DNA from: Celeribacter indicus
GTDB taxonomy: Bacteria; Pseudomonadota; Alphaproteobacteria; Rhodobacterales; Rhodobacteraceae
Reading direction: 5' to 3'
Assembly: GCF_000819565.1 (NCBI RefSeq)
Contig: NZ_CP004393.1
Location: 1-64,000 of the forward strand
DNA: 64,000 nucleotides
The translations under genes were made by a program, and so were the position numbers. Positions 9,845-21,175 of the stretch are shown piece by piece. Under the pieces are notes generated by a model that saw nothing but the letters and a program-made list of their open reading frames with translations, had not been told where the DNA came from and ran no database searches. Each line of letters opens with the position of its first letter. Within the stretch, counting starts at the first letter, position 1.

Positions 9845-9918
9845 GAAACCCTCCCGCTTTTGGCAGAAGTGAATCACAACACCCTACAAACGGAAATCCA
9901 CTTATTGAGTACGTGCCC
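9084..9918 (-). mobile_element. IS5-family (IS427-like) insertion sequence
   Basis: An 835-bp element. Its ends form an imperfect inverted repeat: the left end reads GGGCGCGGACTCAAT and the right end, reversed, reads GGGCACGTACTCAAT. It is flanked by a TA duplication (9082-9083 and 9919-9920), so the rebuilt target is CTAG, as expected for the IS427 group. It contains a two-frame DDE transposase. The TAG that ends the transposase and the TAG that ends the neighbouring RTX gene both use these TA bases. It looks complete and possibly active. Confidence 0.92.
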
Positions 9919-12626
9919 TAGTCGAACACGATGAGCATGCTGTCGGCGAGGCCGCCGAGATCCCTCACGCCTTCGAGAATGATGATGTCGCCGTTGCCGA
10001 AATCGATCAGAGTCCTGCCGGCGCCGACCGCCGCGTAGCGGGCGACGATCTGGTCCGGCGTCGTGACCCCGTCGAGCAGCTGCGCCTCGATGAAGAGTCG
10101 GTCCTCGCCGGGCGTGAAATCCGCCACGCGATCCGTCTCCATCCCCTTCCGGAATACGAAGATATCGGCCCCGCCCCCGCCGACGAGATAATCCTGTCCC
10201 GCGCCCCCGGTGAGCCGGTCTGGGCCATTGCCTCCGTTGAGGACGTCGTTTCCATCGTCCCCAAGGAGCGTGTCCGCGCCGCCGCCCCCGATCAGGCGAT
10301 CGTTCCCCTGGTTGCCCGCGAGAACGCTGTTGCCCTTGCCATCCATGAGGAAGTCATCACCCGGCCCGGCGATCAGCCAGCCCACGCCCTCCTCGTTGAT
10401 GAGCGTATCGTCGCCGTCTTCGCCCATGAGCCGGTCATTCCCGCTCTCCCCGTAGAGGAAATCCCTTCCGTATCCGCCGTTCAGGACGTCATTGCCCGGC
10501 CCGCCATACACTATGTCGTTTCCCCGGCTGGCCACCACGACATCGTCCCCGGCTCCGGCATAGATCACGTCGTTGCCGAGACGCGTGTAGAGATGGTTGT
10601 CCCCGTCATCGCCATAGACGATATCGTTTCCGTCCCCGCTGGTCAGGTTCTCGATGCTGATATAGCGGTCGCCGGCGGCGCCCTCGCCGACATTCTCGGC
10701 GGGAGTCGCGAGGTTCAGCACGAGATCCGTCGTGAACTCCTCATAGCTCGCCGTGTCGATACCCGATCCTCCGTCGAGAACATCCGCGCCCATGCCGCCG
10801 AACAGGATGTCGTCTCCGGCGCCGCCCGCCAGCACGTCGTCGCCACTGTAGCCTTTGAGGATGTTGTTCGCTTGATCGCCCCGGATCGTGTCGTCAAGGG
10901 TCGTACCGATCACGTTCTCGACCGAGACCAGCCGGTGTCCCGCCGCCGCACCGGCATTCAGTGCCTGGTTTTCCAGGTTGATCACCACCGCTGTCGTCGC
11001 GAGGCTGTAATCCACCGTATCCAACCCCTCGCCGCCGTCCATGTGGTCGTTGCCGCGCGTCGAGATAAAGATGTCGTCGCCCCCGTGACCATAGAGGAAA
11101 TCGGCCGAAGCCGTGCCCTGGAGCCGGTCGTGGCCCGCGCCGCCCTCCGTGATCTGGCGTCCGGCACCTGCGTGTCTCGGTTCGAGTGTGACATGGTCGG
11201 CATTGAACAGGAGCGCGTCGACAAAGGCGGCGGCCGGAACCTGCATCCCGTCATGTGTCGTGACATGCAGCTCTTCGTCGCCGAGGGTCAGGACAAACCC
11301 CTCGGCCGTCATCTCGATCCCGACGCTGGCCACTGTTCCGCTCAACGGATAGTGGGACAGGTCGATGCGGTCCTGCCGGTAGTCGAAATCCGAAATACGG
11401 TCCGTCTTTCCGTCCGGTCGGAGTTGAAACAGATCCGCGCCGCTGCCGCCGACGAGGACGTCCACGCCGGGTCCGTCGACGAGAATGTCGTTACCACCCC
11501 CGGCCTGCACCGTACCGCCGCCCGCGGTCGCGAAGATCACGTCCGCCCTTGCCGTTCCGGTGCCGCCGGTCGACACCTGCCCCTGATCGTGCAGATCCAC
11601 GGCCAGCCGGGTCAACCCCGTGTCGCCCGTCGATATCGCAATCAGGTCCAGACCGGTTTCCGTCTCGACGAAATTCAGGTGGGAGACGTTTCGGAGCGCC
11701 GTCTGGTCCGTGTCTATGAAGCTGTCCCACACCACCAGAGAGCCGTCAGGAAGGATCTTGAACAGGGTGACGCCGCCATCGTTGCCTGCTGCGGCGAGGT
11801 AGGAGGTTCCGGCATAGGTGATGGCGTCGAGTGCCGCCGCGCCGCCGAAGCGCGTGTGCAGGGAATCGTTCACCTGATCGCGCGCGAGGAGTTCGCCCTC
11901 CTCGGTCAGCTCGAGCACGGTGACGGACCCGCTGTCCGCGGCGGCGAGAAAGACGAACGCGCGGCCCTCGATGGTGAGCGTCGCCATGGCCGTGGGCGTC
12001 GCGACCGGCAGGCCGTCTGCCGCGCCATAGCTGTCGGTCACGCGCAGGCGGCCGTCGTCGGAAACGTCCATCGCCGTCAGCCCGTGCTCCGTCGCGGAGG
12101 CCGCGACGACATAGGTCTTTCCGCCCGTGTCGACCGCGCAAATCGCGCTGATCCGGTCGAGATGCAGATCCACCCCGTCTTCGACATGTACGGGCGCGCC
12201 CGGCCTTCCGTCCCCGTCGAGCGCGAAGACCGACAGCCCAGAGCCCGCGGAGAGGGCCGCGGCCACATAGGTCGTCCCGCCCACCTCGAAGGTGCAGATC
12301 TCCGCCCGGTTCGCGTGAGAGGGCGATAGGTTCAACTGCACGCTTTGCGATCCGCCCGCCGAACCCTCGGAAAGCGTCAGGATCGCCGCGTCGGAAAGCA
12401 CATGATCCGAGCCGCCGATCGGCAGGATCGCGGCGTTGCCGTCCGCCATGTTTCCCGCGGAGAAGACAAGCGGCGATCCCTCCCGGATCGTGCCTGTCGC
12501 ATATGTCCCCGACGCGGCATCGTAAAGCCGGATCGTGCCGTCGGCGGAGCAGACCACCGTCGTCACCTGGCTGAGAAAAACCGCATCCTCCGCAAAGATC
12601 GTCTCGATCACCGACAAGGCGCCCAT
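9918..12626 (-). CDS. RTX calcium-binding protein with N-terminal propeller-like region
   Basis: 902 residues from the ATG at 12626, chosen for the AGGAGGG site just upstream; the frame is open for 55 more codons but without a good start. Residues about 20-350 hold repeats resembling a beta-propeller (SADGTIRLYD, ILPDGSLVVWD). Residues about 365-425 and 495-870 are rich in GGxGxDxLx nonapeptides, which bind calcium in type I secreted RTX proteins. The C-terminus has the usual RTX ending (VADFTPGEDRLFIE). There is no signal peptide, as expected for type I secretion, and no type I secretion genes nearby. The TAG stop sits on the IS5-family insertion point but is preserved. Confidence 0.88.
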   Translation of the reverse strand: MGALSVIETIFAEDAVFLSQVTTVVCSADGTIRLYDAASGTYATGTIREGSPLVFSAGNMADGNAAILPIGGSDHVLSDAAILTLSEGSAGGSQSVQLNLSPSHANRAEICTFEVGGTTYVAAALSAGSGLSVFALDGDGRPGAPVHVEDGVDLHLDRISAICAVDTGGKTYVVAASATEHGLTAMDVSDDGRLRVTDSYGAADGLPVATPTAMATLTIEGRAFVFLAAADSGSVTVLELTEEGELLARDQVNDSLHTRFGGAAALDAITYAGTSYLAAAGNDGGVTLFKILPDGSLVVWDSFIDTDQTALRNVSHLNFVETETGLDLIAISTGDTGLTRLAVDLHDQGQVSTGGTGTARADVIFATAGGGTVQAGGGNDILVDGPGVDVLVGGSGADLFQLRPDGKTDRISDFDYRQDRIDLSHYPLSGTVASVGIEMTAEGFVLTLGDEELHVTTHDGMQVPAAAFVDALLFNADHVTLEPRHAGAGRQITEGGAGHDRLQGTASADFLYGHGGDDIFISTRGNDHMDGGEGLDTVDYSLATTAVVINLENQALNAGAAAGHRLVSVENVIGTTLDDTIRGDQANNILKGYSGDDVLAGGAGDDILFGGMGADVLDGGSGIDTASYEEFTTDLVLNLATPAENVGEGAAGDRYISIENLTSGDGNDIVYGDDGDNHLYTRLGNDVIYAGAGDDVVVASRGNDIVYGGPGNDVLNGGYGRDFLYGESGNDRLMGEDGDDTLINEEGVGWLIAGPGDDFLMDGKGNSVLAGNQGNDRLIGGGGADTLLGDDGNDVLNGGNGPDRLTGGAGQDYLVGGGGADIFVFRKGMETDRVADFTPGEDRLFIEAQLLDGVTTPDQIVARYAAVGAGRTLIDFGNGDIIILEGVRDLGGLADSMLIVFD

Positions 12627-12720
12627 GCCACCCTCCTGTATCCCACACAGGCAGGATGGCGTCAGGGATTTAACGATCCTTTCATCAAATCGGGCGAGAT
12701 CGCGGCAAGATCCTCCAATT

Positions 12721-13728
12721 TTATCGGACAGGCGGCGGTTTCGCCCGATAGAGGGCGCGGGCGATGTCGAGCGCGACCGGTGCTGCGACATGGTGCGGTG
12801 TCACCAGCTCCTCCGTCTCGACCGGATCGGGGGAGAGCGCGAAGTCCGGCTGGACCGCGCGGATCCGCTGTGCCAGCGCGGCATTCCGACCGGCGAAGCC
12901 CTCCCGGATGGCCGCGATCTGGGACAGGGTGAGCGCCGACCGCGGTCGGGCGCCGAAGTGATCTGCGAGCACCCGCTCCACGGTGTCGATGAGCCGCGGT
13001 GTCGCGGGTCCCGGTCGCGCAATCCGTGCAGCGAGCGCATGGGCCAGGGGCGGTGGCGAGCTGTTGCGATCGCCGGGCGGAGGCGCCTCGAGCCCGTCGC
13101 ACAGCCCGTCCAGCCCGGCCGCCGCGAGGATTGCCGCGAGCACCCCGCCCGGATGGCGACGGGCGCTCCGATAGTCGAGGAAGGTGATCCGTTCCGGGGC
13201 AAAGCCCCGCGTCACCTGATCGAGAACCAGCCCGTGATCGACGGGAACGCCGGAAGCCAGCCCTTCCGCGATGGCATGATCGACGAAATTCGCGAGATTG
13301 GGCATGCGACCGGATTTCACCACCTGCTGCCAGACGGACTGGATCAACCCGACCTGGTCGCGGACGACATAGACCAGCCGGACCGAGGCGAAGGGCCTGA
13401 CCATCTCTGCAAGCTCCGCGAAATCGACCCGCGCCGGAGCCAGCCGACTGAACGGCTCTCCCGACAGGATCAGCGTGCCCTCCCGATCGGCATATCCGGT
13501 CACGACCCGGTGCCACAGCGCGTCGATGCCGCCCGCCCCGGCCAGGCAGCGCGCGAAAGCCGGATCGGGGATCCATTTCGCCGTCAGCACGTGATGCGCC
13601 GGATTCGGACCGAGATCGGGATAGAACACCCCCGCCTCCGCCAGCCGTGCCCGGTTGCGAAACAGCGTCCGCTGGACATAGGTGGTCCCGGTCTTGTGCG
13701 CGCCGATATGCAGGAGAAGATGGGCCAT
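12721..13728 (-). CDS. Sulfotransferase family protein (first copy)
   Basis: 335 residues from the ATG at 13728, preceded by GGGAGT; the longer open frame upstream overlaps the neighbouring gene and is not coding. The N-terminus HIGAHKTGTTYVQ is the 5'-phosphosulfate-binding loop of PAPS-dependent sulfotransferases. It starts 5 bp after the stop of a second sulfotransferase that is similar in its first 60 residues, so the two may be paralogues with different acceptors. The setting with glycosyltransferases and a Kps-type exporter suggests it sulfates a surface glycan; this is inference. Confidence 0.85.
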   Translation of the reverse strand: MAHLLLHIGAHKTGTTYVQRTLFRNRARLAEAGVFYPDLGPNPAHHVLTAKWIPDPAFARCLAGAGGIDALWHRVVTGYADREGTLILSGEPFSRLAPARVDFAELAEMVRPFASVRLVYVVRDQVGLIQSVWQQVVKSGRMPNLANFVDHAIAEGLASGVPVDHGLVLDQVTRGFAPERITFLDYRSARRHPGGVLAAILAAAGLDGLCDGLEAPPPGDRNSSPPPLAHALAARIARPGPATPRLIDTVERVLADHFGARPRSALTLSQIAAIREGFAGRNAALAQRIRAVQPDFALSPDPVETEELVTPHHVAAPVALDIARALYRAKPPPVR

Positions 13729-13733
13729 GGAGT

Positions 13734-14735
13734 TCACTCCCTTTGCTGGTCCGCCACAAGATGTCGCGCGAGCGTCATGAATAGGGCGGCGTCCATCTCC
13801 TCGCGCGTGACGCGGCCGGCGAGCGCCGCGCTGATCTCCGGCATGCGGAACCGCGGCTGCACCGGGCGCACAGTCCTCTCGAGCGCCCGGTTGAGCGGTT
13901 CGTAATGCGCCGCGATCCGCGCGATCTCCGCCTCGGTGAAAAGTGTCGTGCGCCGTGCCGGCCCGAACCGGCCCTCGACGGAGAGGCGCGCCGCGCGCAG
14001 CAGCCATGGCGGCGCCTTGCGCTCCGTCGCGACGAGATTGGCGCAGAGCGTCGCGAGCGGTTCCGGCGACATGTTGGAATTCTGCGCGCCGAAGGGCAGG
14101 AGGTCCGCGGGATCGACCCCCTGCGCGACCTCCTCCAGAACCGCGCCGAGGATGCCATGCGCATGGCCGCATGCCCGTTCGTAGCTCAGCAGGCGGATTT
14201 CCCCCGGATCGAAACCGCTGTAGAGATGCTTCAGGAGGCGGCGATAATCGGTGAACAGCCCCTCGACCAGATCGTTTTCCAGCGTTCTGGCGAGATAGGG
14301 TTCGATCGGGCCGGGATTGCGGTCCTCCGAGACCTGCTGGTACACGGACTGGATGAAGGCCGCCTGATTACGCAGGACGCAAATCACCCGCACCTCGTCG
14401 AAATGCGACACCATCCTGCGCAGATGCGCCATGTCGACGCGATGCGGAGCCCAGCGGGAAAATTCCTCCGAACTGACGAAGATCGTATCGCTTTCCCGGA
14501 TCTTCCGGTCCGGGCAATGCTGCAACCTTGCCCAGGCGCGGGCCGGGTCCCGATAGGCGTAGGTCCGGTTCAGCGGAATCCAGGCGGAGGCGAGTCCGTG
14601 ATGCCCCCGTTGCGCCCCGATCGCGGGATAAAGGAGACCGTGGCGGCGCAGCAGGCGGCGGTTCTTGTGAAACGTGTCCTGGATATGCGTCGTCGCGGTC
14701 TTGTGCGTGCCGATATGGAGGATGAGGCGGGGCAT
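13734..14735 (-). CDS. Sulfotransferase family protein (second copy)
   Basis: 333 residues. The N-terminal HIGTHKTATTHIQDTF matches the PAPS 5'-phosphosulfate loop, with Ala where the neighbouring paralogue has Gly. Later segments such as DTIFVSSEEFSRW and VICVLRNQAAFIQSVYQQ mirror the neighbour's LILSGEPFSRL and LVYVVRDQVGLIQSVWQQ. Its ATG directly follows the TGA of the upstream RgpF/WbsX-type gene with no bases between, so the genes form a tightly coupled minus-strand operon. The acceptor is unknown. Confidence 0.85.
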   Translation of the reverse strand: MPRLILHIGTHKTATTHIQDTFHKNRRLLRRHGLLYPAIGAQRGHHGLASAWIPLNRTYAYRDPARAWARLQHCPDRKIRESDTIFVSSEEFSRWAPHRVDMAHLRRMVSHFDEVRVICVLRNQAAFIQSVYQQVSEDRNPGPIEPYLARTLENDLVEGLFTDYRRLLKHLYSGFDPGEIRLLSYERACGHAHGILGAVLEEVAQGVDPADLLPFGAQNSNMSPEPLATLCANLVATERKAPPWLLRAARLSVEGRFGPARRTTLFTEAEIARIAAHYEPLNRALERTVRPVQPRFRMPEISAALAGRVTREEMDAALFMTLARHLVADQQRE

Positions 14736-16961
14736 TCAGGAGCCGGCGCTTTCCGGCGCCGCGCAGAATTCCGCCAGCACCTCGAGAGCCGATGATCCAT
14801 ATTGCTGGCACGGCTCCAGCATCGCCTTTTCCGCCCACTCGTTCCAGGCGTTGATCCAGAGCTCGCCTCGGTAGGATCGCGTCAGGCGGGTCCGCGAGAG
14901 CGCGCTCAGCCAGGCCCGGAAGGTGCCGGGATTCGCGCCGTAGGCGATATGGGCCGCTGTCCCGCGGCGGGCGGTGTTGTCCCAGGACGGCATGACCCCG
15001 GCGATCGTGTTCCGTGGCAGCGCCTTCATGTAATCCGCGGAGACCGAGCGCCGCGCGACACTCGTATAATCATAGGCGAGCCCCCGGAAACCGGGCGTCA
15101 CCGCGGCGTGCATCCGGTTGCCGCCGGGACCGCCGCAGAGATAGGCCTCGCGCCCGACCAGCCCGTGCGGCGGCATTTCGACCCAGAAGTCGAACAGCCC
15201 CTCGGGCACCGGGCTTTCCCCTTCCACGTGGAACAGCACCGCGCCGAGTTCCACCTCACCGAGACCCTCCTCGCGCCAGGTTCGGCGCATCTCCTCCACG
15301 GCTGCCTCCGGCCGGGGCATGTCGTCCGGCCTGTAGATCACGAACCGCGGCCGCGTCCCGTCGACCCGCTGGTATCGCGGATCGTGCATGTATCTGGCCA
15401 CGTCGCGGGCGCAGGCGGCGGCAAAGCCTGGCGCATAGCTCTGCGGCATCAGCACTTCGCCGCTCAGCCCGTCCCAGTTGCGCCGCCAGCTCTCGTTTGC
15501 CCAGCACAGGTAGAAGGGAAAGTCGATCTCCGGGCGTTCGAGGAGCCGGTCGAGCGGCTGTTCGAGCAATCTGCGGCCGTCAAACCAGTAATGGTAGACG
15601 CAGAACGCGTCGATGCCGGCAGAGGCCGCCATCCTGGCCTGTTCCGCCATCACCTCGGTCACGCGCAGGTCGTAGAAACCCAGGTCGGTCGGCAGGACCG
15701 GCTGCCTGTGGCCGCGAAAGTTGGGCCTGCCGCGTGCCACACCGCTCCATTCGGTAAATCCCTTCCCCCACCACAGATCGTTTTCCGCAACCGGGTGGAA
15801 TTGCGGCAGGTAGAAGGCAGTGACGAAAGCGGGACGTGGCGGGGGCGGGGCGATCTCCTGCGTGTCGAGTTCGCTCGCCTGGAGAATGCTCAGCCCGGCG
15901 GCCCGGCACATGTATCCCAGCGCCCGCTCGACCGCATGCGCGGTGGTCCCGTCGAGCTGTTGCGCCTCCGGCTCGAAATCCGCGGGGCCGAGTTCGAGTC
16001 CCTTGAGAAGGCGGAGCACGGTCGGCTTGAGCCAGTAGATCGAACCGGCGGGAAAGGCGAGGGTCCGGACGTCCATGGGCACCTCGATCCGGTCGAGCAG
16101 GGATCTCGTCCGTTCGACATTGGAGCCCCACCATTGCGCGCCGCCGAAGCGTTGCCCGTCCGCGACCCAGAAGCCGGTGTCCATGGCCCGCACGAACCGC
16201 TCGAGACGCCGCCGCGTCCGAACAGGATCGCCGAGGATACCGGAAATCAGGGCCTGCCGCCATGTGTCGCCGTCGACGCGGTGGGGGCTCTTCTTCGTAT
16301 GCAGCTTGCAGATCGCCTCGTATCCGTCGAGCAGCCCGGCATTCGCGAAATGCAGGAACGGATAGATGTCGCGGCCGTGATTGGGCACCGCATGCACCGT
16401 CGCCTCAGGAAACCGCGCCAGCACGAGATCGCGGGGATCGGTCTCGTGAGATTTGAGTTTCACATAGGAGACGAAGAGATCGAAGGCGAATCGCTGGCGG
16501 GCGAGATGGGCGGCGATTTCCTCCCACATCTCGATGTAGAAAAGATGCACCACGACCGCGAAACGCGCCTTTGGCCGTTCGGGATCGACACGCAGGACCG
16601 GAAACTCCGCCCCGGCTTCGATCTCCGCGGAGGCCAGGTCGCAGGTCACGCGGCATTCGTGCCGGCCCGACCGGATGTAATGTCGGAACGGCCGCTCCCG
16701 CGCCCGTGCGACGTCCGGATTGTGCTTGAGATAGGCCGCCGGGGAGAAGGCCCCGTTCGGCCGCAGCCCCAGCGGCTCCCCGTAGATCACGTAATGCCGC
16801 TCCGGGTCCATCTTGTAGAGCCTGTGCAGCCTCGGGAGTGTCCCGGTGTAGAAGGCGCGGTCGAAAAGCCCGCTGGCGCGCAACTCGCGGGCATAGGCGC
16901 GTTCTTCGGAGGTTGCGATCACGAAGCGAAGGGCGTTTTTCATCCGTTGGGCGGGTCTCAT
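14736..16961 (-). CDS. RgpF-like / WbsX-like polysaccharide biosynthesis protein
   Basis: 741 residues. Residues about 135-340 resemble the rhamnan synthesis F (RgpF) domain (VVVHLFYIEMWEEIAAHL, PNHGRDIYPFL, KLHTKKSPH). Residues about 380-710 resemble the WbsX family (AFYLPQFHPVAENDLWWGKG, CVYHYWFDGRRLLEQPLD, CWANESWRRNWDG). Proteins joining these two are found in O-antigen and capsule loci and are thought to handle glycan chains. An ATG at 16943 is an alternative start. It is the first gene of the minus-strand run that continues into the two sulfotransferases, and lies just downstream of the KpsM-like permease. Confidence 0.85.
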   Translation of the reverse strand: MRPAQRMKNALRFVIATSEERAYARELRASGLFDRAFYTGTLPRLHRLYKMDPERHYVIYGEPLGLRPNGAFSPAAYLKHNPDVARARERPFRHYIRSGRHECRVTCDLASAEIEAGAEFPVLRVDPERPKARFAVVVHLFYIEMWEEIAAHLARQRFAFDLFVSYVKLKSHETDPRDLVLARFPEATVHAVPNHGRDIYPFLHFANAGLLDGYEAICKLHTKKSPHRVDGDTWRQALISGILGDPVRTRRRLERFVRAMDTGFWVADGQRFGGAQWWGSNVERTRSLLDRIEVPMDVRTLAFPAGSIYWLKPTVLRLLKGLELGPADFEPEAQQLDGTTAHAVERALGYMCRAAGLSILQASELDTQEIAPPPPRPAFVTAFYLPQFHPVAENDLWWGKGFTEWSGVARGRPNFRGHRQPVLPTDLGFYDLRVTEVMAEQARMAASAGIDAFCVYHYWFDGRRLLEQPLDRLLERPEIDFPFYLCWANESWRRNWDGLSGEVLMPQSYAPGFAAACARDVARYMHDPRYQRVDGTRPRFVIYRPDDMPRPEAAVEEMRRTWREEGLGEVELGAVLFHVEGESPVPEGLFDFWVEMPPHGLVGREAYLCGGPGGNRMHAAVTPGFRGLAYDYTSVARRSVSADYMKALPRNTIAGVMPSWDNTARRGTAAHIAYGANPGTFRAWLSALSRTRLTRSYRGELWINAWNEWAEKAMLEPCQQYGSSALEVLAEFCAAPESAGS

Positions 16962-17002: not shown

Positions 17003-17818
17003 TCAGCGCAGCAGCAGGCTCTTGTAGTTTCGGCTCAGAAGCAGGAAGCCGAGCACGCCCAGCCCCAGGGACAGGAACAGGACGAAGCCCGGCAGGGCCG
17101 CGGGCGCGTCATAGGTGGCGTAGATGCCCGTGCGGAACACGGCGACGATGCTGCACAGCGGGTTGAACATGAGGAGGCTCCGGACCTGTTCCGGAAGGCT
17201 CTCCGGCAGGAAGATCACGCCGGAGACGATCAGGAGCGGGCGCGTCAGGATCGACCAGAGGGTTTCCCAGATTGGCGCGGCGAGAAACAGGTAGCAGTTC
17301 ACGACGCCCACCGCACAGCCAAAGGCGACCGCCATCGCCATGCCGAGCATCAGGCCGGACCAGTCGAGGATGAGCGGGATGTCCCAGATGCTGACGATCA
17401 TGACGAGGACCAGAACGGTGACGAGCCCCTGGGTGACCAGATTGAGCACGAGCCGGGCCGCCAGCGCATCCACGAAGGAGATCGCCGGATAGTGCAGCAG
17501 CGGGCGGGAGAACCGGACCGCCCGCGCCAGGTCGTTCGAGATCGCGAGGAAGACGGAAAACGGCAGGAAGCCCGTGGCATGGAAGAGCGGAAAGCTGGTG
17601 CCGAGGGCCGGGTGGCGCGCGATCATGGAGAAGACCAGCGTCAGGAAACCGATCGCGGCGATCGGTTCGGCCACGGTCCAGAGATAGCCGCCGAAGACCC
17701 GCGAATACCGGGTTTCGACCTCCCGTAGGATCAGCGCGACAACGGTGCGCAGGAAGCGGGTGCCATGGGGCGCGGGTCTCTGCGGGAGCCGTATTCCGAT
17801 CGGCGCATTCTGCGACAT
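17003..17818 (-). CDS. kpsM: Capsule polysaccharide ABC transporter permease (KpsM-like)
   Basis: 271 residues, about six hydrophobic segments, of the ABC-2 polysaccharide-export permease family. REVETRYSRVFGGYLWTVAEP near residue 33 is the amphipathic entry segment typical of KpsM/Wzm proteins. The start ATG is preceded by AAAGGAAAG. It is divergent from the KpsE-like gene, with about 140 bp between them. Its partner ATPase is the interrupted kpsT beyond kpsE, so the exporter is probably non-functional unless another ATPase substitutes. Confidence 0.9.
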   Translation of the reverse strand: MSQNAPIGIRLPQRPAPHGTRFLRTVVALILREVETRYSRVFGGYLWTVAEPIAAIGFLTLVFSMIARHPALGTSFPLFHATGFLPFSVFLAISNDLARAVRFSRPLLHYPAISFVDALAARLVLNLVTQGLVTVLVLVMIVSIWDIPLILDWSGLMLGMAMAVAFGCAVGVVNCYLFLAAPIWETLWSILTRPLLIVSGVIFLPESLPEQVRSLLMFNPLCSIVAVFRTGIYATYDAPAALPGFVLFLSLGLGVLGFLLLSRNYKSLLLR

Positions 17819-17958
17819 CGGTTCTTTCCTTTCGAATTCCTTTTGAGTCCGGTCGGCGGCGACGATGGTCCGGCGCCGAAAACCGTCCTGTCGCCACCAT
17901 TGCTTAAGAAAGTTGATGTTGAATGAACGCGGGCAGAGGGATGAAAGGAGATCGCGTC

Positions 17959-19170
17959 ATGAACGACGCCCGACAGAGACGTCCGTCCCGAGCCGCCGCT
18001 CAGGCGCGGGCGGAGCGGAGCAGGAACATCTTTCTCGTCGAGGTGCCGCTCACCGCGCCGGAGGCGTTCATGCGCCCGCGCCACAAGGCGATTCTCGTCA
18101 GTTTCCTGCTTGCGGTGCTTCTGCCGGCGGCCGCCGCCGCGGCCTATCTCTGGCGGGCGGCTTCCGACCAGTATGTCTCGACCCTCGGTTTTTCCGTGCG
18201 GACGGAAACCGCCGCGCCGGCCGCGTCCCTGGTCTCCTCGCTCATCGGCGTGTCGTCGAACGGCGCGCGCGATGCAGATATCCTCTACAAATACCTGCGC
18301 AGCCGCGATCTCGTCGCCCGAATCGACGCGGAACTCGACCTGCGCGCGCTTTATACGAAGCCGCCTTCGGATCCGGTCTTCCGCTTGCGCGCGGGGGCGA
18401 CGATCGAGGATCTGACAAACTATTGGTCCCGCATGACGCAGGTGTCCTACGACGGCAATTCCGGCCTGATCGAAATGGATATCCGCAGTTTCGATCCCGG
18501 CGACAGCTACCGGATCGCCCGCGCCGTACTCGCCCTGTCGACGGAGAAGATCAACGACCTGTCCGATATCGCGCGGGAGGACACGGTGCGATTCGCCCGG
18601 CACGACATGGAGGCGGCGGCGGGACAGCTGAGGGAGGCGCGCAGGCGCCTGACCGGGTTTCGCGTGGAGAACCGGATGGTCGATCCCGACGCCGATATCC
18701 AGGGCCAGATGGGTTTGCTGAACGCGCTTCGGACGACCCTTGCCGAGGAGATGATTGCGAATAACCTGATCCGCACCTCCACCACGCGCGAGAACGATCC
18801 GCGGCTGGAACAATCGGAGCGGCGCATCGCGATCATCCGCGACCGGATCGAACAGGAGCGTGCCCATCTCGGCGCGGGGGCCGGGGAGGAAGGGCCGGGC
18901 TATTCGCGGATCGTGTCCGACTACGAAAGCCTTGTGGTGGACCGGGAATTCGCCGAACAGCGCTATCTGGCCGCGCGTGCGAACTACGATACCGCGCTTG
19001 CGGAGGCCGGGCGCCAGAGCCGTTATCTCGCAGTCTATGACGAGCCGGCCCTGGCCGAGGCCGCGACCCGGCCGCGCCGGCCGATTATCCTTGGCCTGAC
19101 GCTCCTGCTGCTCAGTGGCCTCTGGGGGCTCGGGCTTCTGATCTTCTACTCGATCAAGGACAGAAGATGA
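17959..19170 (+). CDS. kpsE: Capsule export inner-membrane protein (KpsE/CtrB-like)
   Basis: 403 residues from the ATG at 17959, which has an ideal AAAGGAGAT; two upstream in-frame starts lack one as good. A transmembrane segment is at about 43-64, followed by a long periplasmic region with coiled-coil-like helices and a second transmembrane segment near 374-397, with a short basic tail. This is the topology of the polysaccharide co-polymerase / export family (KpsE, BexC, CtrB). Its TGA overlaps the kpsT ATG by 4 bp, so kpsE and kpsT were an operon. Confidence 0.88.
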   Translation: MNDARQRRPSRAAAQARAERSRNIFLVEVPLTAPEAFMRPRHKAILVSFLLAVLLPAAAAAAYLWRAASDQYVSTLGFSVRTETAAPAASLVSSLIGVSSNGARDADILYKYLRSRDLVARIDAELDLRALYTKPPSDPVFRLRAGATIEDLTNYWSRMTQVSYDGNSGLIEMDIRSFDPGDSYRIARAVLALSTEKINDLSDIAREDTVRFARHDMEAAAGQLREARRRLTGFRVENRMVDPDADIQGQMGLLNALRTTLAEEMIANNLIRTSTTRENDPRLEQSERRIAIIRDRIEQERAHLGAGAGEEGPGYSRIVSDYESLVVDREFAEQRYLAARANYDTALAEAGRQSRYLAVYDEPALAEAATRPRRPIILGLTLLLLSGLWGLGLLIFYSIKDRR

Positions 19171-19297
19171 CGATCCGATTGCACAATGTCTCGATGTCCT
19201 TTCGGACCGGAACCCGGCGCAAGATCGTGGCGGACAGGCTCTCGATGGAGTTCCGGCCCCGGCAATGCGTCGCGATCCTGGGGCGGAACGGCGCCGG

Positions 19298-19305
19298 GAA
19301 ATCCA
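19298..19305 (+). repeat. IS256-family target duplication, left copy
   Basis: GAAATCCA, repeated exactly at 20635-20642 on the other side of the element. Its 8-bp length fits the IS256 family (8-9 bp). Confidence 0.9.
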
Positions 19306-20634
19306 GAGAGTGTCCGACCTTTTGTGTATGGCTGATCCGGTTCATGCTGCACCGAAAGGAAGCATGAATGACTATTTCGAAAGACATCTTGGACGAACTG
19401 CTTAAGGGTGTGGAGCGCCCTGAGGATCTGCTCGGCGATGCCGGGCTGATGAAAGAGCTGAAGATCAAGCTCATGGAACGAATGCTGGGCGCGGAGCTGA
19501 CGGCGCATCTTGGCTACGAGGAAGGCAAAGACGCTCCACCCGGCCAGACCAACCGCCGCAATGGCGCCTCGAGCAAGGTGCTGAAGAGCCAAGACGGCGA
19601 ACTGCCGCTGGCGGTGCCTCGCGACCGCGACAGCAGCTTCGAGCCCGAGCTGGTGAAGAAGGGCCAGACCCGGATCGACGGGATCGATGACAAGATCATC
19701 GGGCTTTATGCGGCCGGGCTGACGGTCCGGGACATCCAGGCTCACCTGCTTGATCTCTACGGCCTGAAGGTCTCGCCCGACCTGATCAGCCGCGTCACCG
19801 ATGCGGTGCTGGACGAGGTCAGGGAATGGCAGACCCGCGCGCTGGATCGGATGTATCCCATCGTGATCTTCGACGCTCTACGGGTGAAGATCCGTGACGC
19901 CGACAGCCGGACAGTGAAGAATAAGGCCGTCTACGTCGCCCTGGGCGTCACCCGTGATGGGAGCCGTGAGGTTCTGGGCCTGTGGACCGCCGAGAACGAG
20001 GGCGCCAAATTCTGGCTCTCGGTGATGAACGAGTTGAAGAACCGGGGCGTGCAGGACATCCTGATCGCGGTCGTGGACGGGCTGAAGGGCTTTCCTGAGG
20101 CCATCACCGCCGCGTTCCCGGACGCCATGGTCCAGACCTGCATCGTGCATCTGGTGCGCCATTCCCTGAATTTCTGCTCTTGGAAGGACCGCAAGGCCGT
20201 GGCTGCGGACCTACGCCGGATTTACAGTGCCCCGACCGCCGATATGGCCGAGGCCGAGCTCGATGCCTTCGAGGAGAAATGGGCCGGGAAATACGCCTCC
20301 ATCGCCCCGGCCTGGCGCCGGGCATGGCAGGAGGTGATCCCGTTCTTTGGTTTCGATCCCGCGATCCGGAAAATCATCTACACCACGAATGCCATAGAAA
20401 GCTTGAACCGCGTGATCCGGAAAACGATCAAGACGCGGGGCTCCTTCCCGACCGACGAGGCCGCAACCAAGTTGATCTATCTGGCAATCCGCAAATTCGA
20501 AAAGGATGGCCGAAATGTCCGGGAATGGTTTGCAGCCCGCAACCAGTTCGCCATAATGTTCGGCGAGCGCTTCGACGCTTGAGTATCTGAAACCGCATGG
20601 GCCGGGCCAGATACACATAGTTCATGACACTCCC
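19306..20634 (+). mobile_element. IS256-family insertion sequence in kpsT
   Basis: A 1329-bp element. The left end reads GAGAGTGTC and the right end, reversed, GGGAGTGTC; both are followed further in by a shared GTGTAT. It is flanked by the exact 8-bp duplication GAAATCCA. It carries one full-length mutator-type transposase read in the same direction as kpsT. Nothing looks decayed, which together with the perfect target duplication suggests a recent insertion. Confidence 0.93.
19368..20582 (+). CDS. IS256-family (mutator-type) transposase
   Basis: 404 residues, the family length. The DDE residues are visible in context: Asp in YPIVIFDALRVKI (about 169), Asp in IAVVDGLKGFPEA (about 235), and Glu in TTNAIESLNR (about 345). 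The C-terminal FEKDGRNVREWFAARNQF is characteristic of the family. It starts at the ATG immediately after the stop of the kpsT stub, with a GGAAGC site upstream. Confidence 0.96.
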   Translation: MTISKDILDELLKGVERPEDLLGDAGLMKELKIKLMERMLGAELTAHLGYEEGKDAPPGQTNRRNGASSKVLKSQDGELPLAVPRDRDSSFEPELVKKGQTRIDGIDDKIIGLYAAGLTVRDIQAHLLDLYGLKVSPDLISRVTDAVLDEVREWQTRALDRMYPIVIFDALRVKIRDADSRTVKNKAVYVALGVTRDGSREVLGLWTAENEGAKFWLSVMNELKNRGVQDILIAVVDGLKGFPEAITAAFPDAMVQTCIVHLVRHSLNFCSWKDRKAVAADLRRIYSAPTADMAEAELDAFEEKWAGKYASIAPAWRRAWQEVIPFFGFDPAIRKIIYTTNAIESLNRVIRKTIKTRGSFPTDEAATKLIYLAIRKFEKDGRNVREWFAARNQFAIMFGERFDA

Positions 20635-20642
20635 GAAATCCA
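20635..20642 (+). repeat. IS256-family target duplication, right copy
   Basis: Exact copy of GAAATCCA at 19298-19305; kpsT coding sequence resumes directly after it. Confidence 0.9.
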
Positions 20643-21175
20643 CCCTCCTCCAGATGATCGCCGGAATGATCCCACCGCAATCGGGCCGGATCGAGGTCAC
20701 GGGAACGGTGTCCTGGCCGGTCGGATTCGCGGGCTCCTTCCACCCCGATCTCACCGGCGCCCAGAACCTGCGCTTCGTGGCGCGGGTCTATGGCGTCGAC
20801 ACGCAGCACCTTGTCGATTTCGCCAGGGAAGTGTCCGGCCTCGGCGCCCATTTCGACGCGCCCTTCCGCAGCTATTCGGCCGGAATGCGCGCGCGCCTCG
20901 CCTTCGCCGCCTCGATGGGCATCGACTTCGACCATTACCTCTTCGACGAGGTGACATCGGTGGGCGACGCCGCCTTCCGGGAGAAGAGCGAGGCGGTGAT
21001 CCGCACGCGGCTGAAGAGGTCGGGCGCGATCCTCGTATCGCATTCCATGGGGCTGGTGCGAAGCCTCTGCGACGCAGCGGTCCTCCTCGAAGACGGCAAG
21101 GCGATGTGGTTCAACGACGTTGCGCGCGCGATCCGCCGCCATCAGTCGATGCTGGAGGCCTGACCGCGCCGCATG

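Follow-up and report, generated by a model that had tools for sequence, protein, structure and literature searches.

The window, the first 64,000 nucleotides of the Celeribacter indicus contig NZ_CP004393.1, carries a row of capsule genes in which an insertion sequence (IS) divides kpsT. On the forward strand, kpsE (17923..19170) encodes a KpsE-type inner-membrane export protein of 415 residues and overlaps the start of kpsT, which is the last gene of this unit and is followed by a gene on the opposite strand. Divergent from kpsE, on the reverse strand, kpsM (17003..17818) encodes a KpsM-type exporter permease, 271 residues as called, that matches Pfam ABC2_membrane above the cut-off; it aligns with its counterpart in congener G011 (locus L147) at 59% identity out to position 17842, and its true start may lie slightly upstream of the called one. 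Behind kpsM, the reverse strand continues with a WbsX/RgpF-type glycosyltransferase of 741 residues (14736..16961; 67% identity to G011), a possible sulfotransferase of 333 residues (13734..14735; 21.2 bits, below the Pfam cut-off of 27 bits), a relative of the latter with no Pfam match (12662..13759; about 355-365 residues depending on the start), and a protein with RTX calcium-binding repeats (9918..12791; 957 residues as called), whose true start may be later than the called one, the alignment with G011 starting at 12629. The RTX protein ends the capsule gene row here, and it closes the row in congener L147 too. All of these genes next to kpsT are open and collinear with G011, each in a one-frame alignment at 49-67% identity, and the collinearity extends to trhO and two more genes downstream; for KpsE, the alignment (62%) spans G011 residues 33-413 and leaves the first 32 G011 residues unaligned. 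The initial annotation had described the other capsule genes as intact, and this holds for the two exporter genes kpsE and kpsM and for the four that lie behind kpsM, all of which read through without interruption.

The names of the exporter components rest on homology and neighbourhood, because the NCBIfam scores of KpsM (73 bits against a cut-off of 300), KpsE (BexC_CtrB_KpsE, 200 bits against 437.5), KpsS and the outer-membrane export protein are all under the curated cut-offs, and none of the 25 listed matches of the right-hand part of KpsT reaches its cut-off. For kpsT, the name is backed both by its homologues and by its position next to kpsE and close to kpsM. Several listed homologues bear the title capsular polysaccharide transport ATP-binding protein. 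Among the matches listed, the closest named KpsT proteins come from Celeribacter (77% and 73% identity); the protein entry P0001 is listed for 2 contigs. KpsS-like, KpsC-type and outer-membrane export proteins are encoded by a cluster of open genes near 3.37 Mb. The KpsC-type protein contains two Capsule_synth stretches, its name being our own reading, and an additional Capsule_synth match lies at 531 kb.

The element in kpsT extends over 19306..20634 (forward strand, 1329 bp) and is bounded by imperfect terminal inverted repeats. Its 404-residue reading frame (19368..20582, forward strand) corresponds to an IS256-type transposase over nearly its whole length: a profile search matched Pfam Transposase_mut to residues 15-376, and NCBIfam transpos_IS256 scored 403.7 bits against a cut-off of 150. 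These matches bear out the family assignment of the initial annotation, and we could verify its coordinates for an exact 8-bp target-site duplication, with the left copy GAAATCCA at 19298..19305 and the right copy GAAATCCA at 20635..20642, both on the forward strand. By simple arithmetic, an exact 8-bp repeat at a given pair of sites has a chance of about 1/65,536. Elements of the IS256 family duplicate about 8 bp of their target. The same length is given for IS256 in an excerpt of PMC11178275. We also observed that the broken kpsT frame ends in a TGA (19365-19367) directly abutting the transposase ATG at 19368 (TGAATG), and that the transposase is oriented in the direction of the kpsE-kpsT transcript. 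Given this abutment and shared direction, translational coupling is possible; the junction is probably incidental.

How precisely is kpsT divided? Its 5' part (19167..19305, forward strand) encodes 46 residues ending in GRNGAGKS and supplies the first base of the Thr codon, whereas the 3' part (20643..21163, forward strand, with the stop at 21161-21163) covers positions 24-137 of the Pfam ABC_tran profile. As kpsT starts at 19167, the left repeat copy ends one base inside the Thr codon, and the duplicated 8 bp reach from the Gly codon through those for Lys and Ser into that for Thr within the Walker A motif, which is split by the IS. The break had initially been placed between the Ser and Thr codons; the motif is indeed divided, but one base further into the Thr codon. 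Joining the two parts had been predicted to yield a KpsT of 219 residues, and this fits the coordinate arithmetic (139 + 521 bases, that is, 660 with the stop). In the interrupted state, the frame running into the IS meets a stop after 66 residues, and the right-hand fragment, within a reading frame of 179 residues whose ATG lies inside the IS end (20624..21163, forward strand), retains Lys-Ser-Thr without the glycine-rich loop. Among homologous proteins taken as the best 120 of 6,082 from clusters at 90% identity, minus the window's own, exactly one residue lies between the aligned halves in 119 of 119. Consistently, exactly three bases separate the halves in all of 80 named loci of 3-16.5 kb each, which were picked by similarity to the right kpsT half, kept from 122, and belong nearly all to Rhodobacteraceae by title or genus. 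Because the halves are exactly one codon apart in homologues, no sequence has been lost; as judged by this comparison, the break is at the Walker A Thr codon, with nothing gained or lost apart from the duplication.

Elsewhere in the genome, the element recurs: there are five full copies including that in kpsT, three of them identical and two with one base difference in common, and exact 8-bp repeats flank three of the five, again including the kpsT copy. A fourth copy (L001, C1:1943740-1945068) is flanked by a repeat of 7 bp and, when its flanks are judged by eye, apparently lies within another transposable element; the fifth (L005, C1:2453312-2454640) has no flanking duplication, which suggests a rearrangement or deletion beside it. 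A 30-bp exact match to the left end only (L007, C1:310573-310602) is either a relic or the terminus of a related element. Five full copies, three of them identical, point to recent movement of the element, and near-identity of this degree would imply recent transposition, in keeping with the recent insertion initially proposed. A related element is found in three of the 19 other congeners, at 67-90% identity and at full length in one.

Uninterrupted kpsT is present in 16 of the 19 other congeners, 15 at 52-76% identity and G006 at 42%, where the assignment is less sure than in the other 15. Two genomes (G009, G010) have the paralogue only, and G017 has no match at E<=1e-40; none of the 16 carriers among the 19 genomes searched has an interrupted kpsT. 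In the family sample, 268 of 295 genomes contain kpsT matches. Among the best of these matches, the three besides the window that start at or beyond residue 20 (G075, G044 and G179) were considered as recurrent interruptions and rejected, because the 94-116 bases between the aligned end of kpsE and the aligned start of kpsT fit a divergent N-terminus and do not accommodate an IS. Likewise, none of the 80 named kpsT loci contains a match to the transposase of this element (E<=1e-5) within its 3-16.5 kb. Among the sampled genomes, the insertion appears to be recent and private to the C. indicus lineage.

We consider it highly probable that a single recent insertion of an IS256-family element inactivated kpsT, as an ordinary mutation. 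We envision a scenario whereby a resident, recently active element would have entered kpsT once, duplicating 8 bp over the Gly-Lys-Ser-Thr codons of Walker A and leaving a frame of 66 residues on the left and, on the right, a fragment that lacks the glycine-rich loop; together these would amount to a null allele of the exporter ATPase. An ABC ATPase whose Walker A is divided should no longer hydrolyse ATP, and from its sequence this KpsT has very likely lost its function. Since no gene follows kpsT in its unit and the next gene lies on the opposite strand, no polar effect on the other capsule genes is expected. We infer that the surface polysaccharide of this cluster would be lost or reduced. 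Reversion by clean loss of the element between the 8-bp repeats is possible in principle and expected to be rare.

Alternatively, the insertion might be silent, if polysaccharide export were kept up by a second KpsT-KpsE pair together with a second KpsM-like permease. KpsT2 (C1:3794015-3794665; 40% identity to the L009 query and 36% to P0002) is followed by a KpsE-family protein (pair: L110, 9016-11461; L160, 1450-2391), and a distant KpsM-like match is found at C1:272810-273532, about 3.5 Mb from the pair in contig coordinates. Given these proteins, capsule loss is not certain. However, KpsT2 is a distant relative, and the second permease is only 22% identical to KpsM and has no Pfam match. 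KpsT2 moreover occurs in at least 15 of the 19 other congeners, a lower bound because the E<=1e-40 limit lies near the scores of the paralogue, and its presence beside uninterrupted kpsT in 13 of them suggests a separate role or polymer. We therefore regard a silent loss as unlikely. Could KpsT itself survive in pieces? The right-hand part has its in-frame ATG at 20624 in the IS end and keeps Lys-Ser-Thr, but Walker A would be distributed over two chains and the right chain would lack the glycine-rich loop; we know of no precedent for a working ATPase from split fragments of this kind, and that both fragments are translated and assemble productively is hardly conceivable. The multicopy nature of the IS might also have led to a repeat being wrongly placed in kpsT during assembly. 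This is extremely improbable, given that the genome is one 4.53-Mb contig, that the duplication is exact, that the left flank matches the genome itself once, and that the outer flanks adjoin in all homologues examined (119 proteins, 80 loci).

The insertion had initially been read as an on/off change in capsule production, with the element entering and cleanly leaving kpsT; as a phase-variable switch, this would have to occur often enough to maintain both capsule forms. Element, duplication and neighbouring genes are intact and the kpsT halves are one codon apart, so that clean loss of the IS would restore the frame. There is also precedent: excerpts of PMC11178275 describe reversible phenotypic switching by IS256 in staphylococci, and a passage of PMC5649170 cites insertion and excision of IS256-family elements in biofilm genes of Staphylococcus and Pseudoalteromonas. 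Yet any recent insertion displays an intact element and an exact duplication, and such anatomy is by itself no argument for a switch. The same excerpts of PMC11178275 note that clean excision seldom occurs and seems not to depend on transposition. Furthermore, kpsT is uninterrupted in all 16 congeners that carry it, recurrence is not demonstrable from a single genome, and no intact allele from the same species was found among the best 120 of 6,082 proteins (90% clusters), the next homologue being 77% identical. Of the initial reading, recent insertion and a divided Walker A stand, whereas switching by precise excision is not favoured and seems to us decidedly improbable. A self-coupled variant is conceivable, in which expression of the capsule unit, owing to the shared direction and the TGA-ATG abutment, could raise translation of the transposase and the rate of element movement; we give such a reversible kpsT/IS switch very little credence.

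If a single inactivating insertion is the correct reading, a surface polysaccharide may be missing from this isolate, one which most of the sampled congeners are able to export. The annotated kpsT of this isolate is a fragment, which calls for caution by users of the annotation. Were clean excision to prove frequent, a marine alphaproteobacterium would possess a surface switch of the IS256 type. A literature search, covering listings and the starts of abstracts, found no description of this kpsT insertion locus; the case is new, and its kind, inactivation by an IS, is already known. In staphylococci, excerpts of PMC11178275 report IS256 inactivation with rare clean excision for sarA and rsbU, and a title among the references of PMC5649170 names ica as an IS256 case. 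The staphylococcal cases and the C. indicus locus have in common an IS256-family element, an 8-bp duplication and a surface-polysaccharide or biofilm phenotype, predicted in C. indicus. Reversion is reported for the former, whereas in C. indicus, a marine alphaproteobacterium, the inserted state alone has been seen, and the gene hit encodes an exporter ATPase. The Pseudoalteromonas biofilm-gene case, as cited in PMC5649170, is likewise marine, involves the IS256 family and affects a surface phenotype, but it concerns another host class and excision is cited for it, in contrast to the inserted state of C. indicus kpsT. With the KpsMTE-type (group 2) capsule ABC exporters, the C. indicus system shares KpsM, KpsE and KpsT homologues and, elsewhere in its genome, KpsS, a KpsC-type protein and an outer-membrane export protein. 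It departs from group 2 in that kpsM is divergent from kpsE-kpsT (as in congener L147), that kpsS and the genes grouped with it are found about 3.4 Mb from the kpsT locus in contig coordinates, and that KpsT is split.
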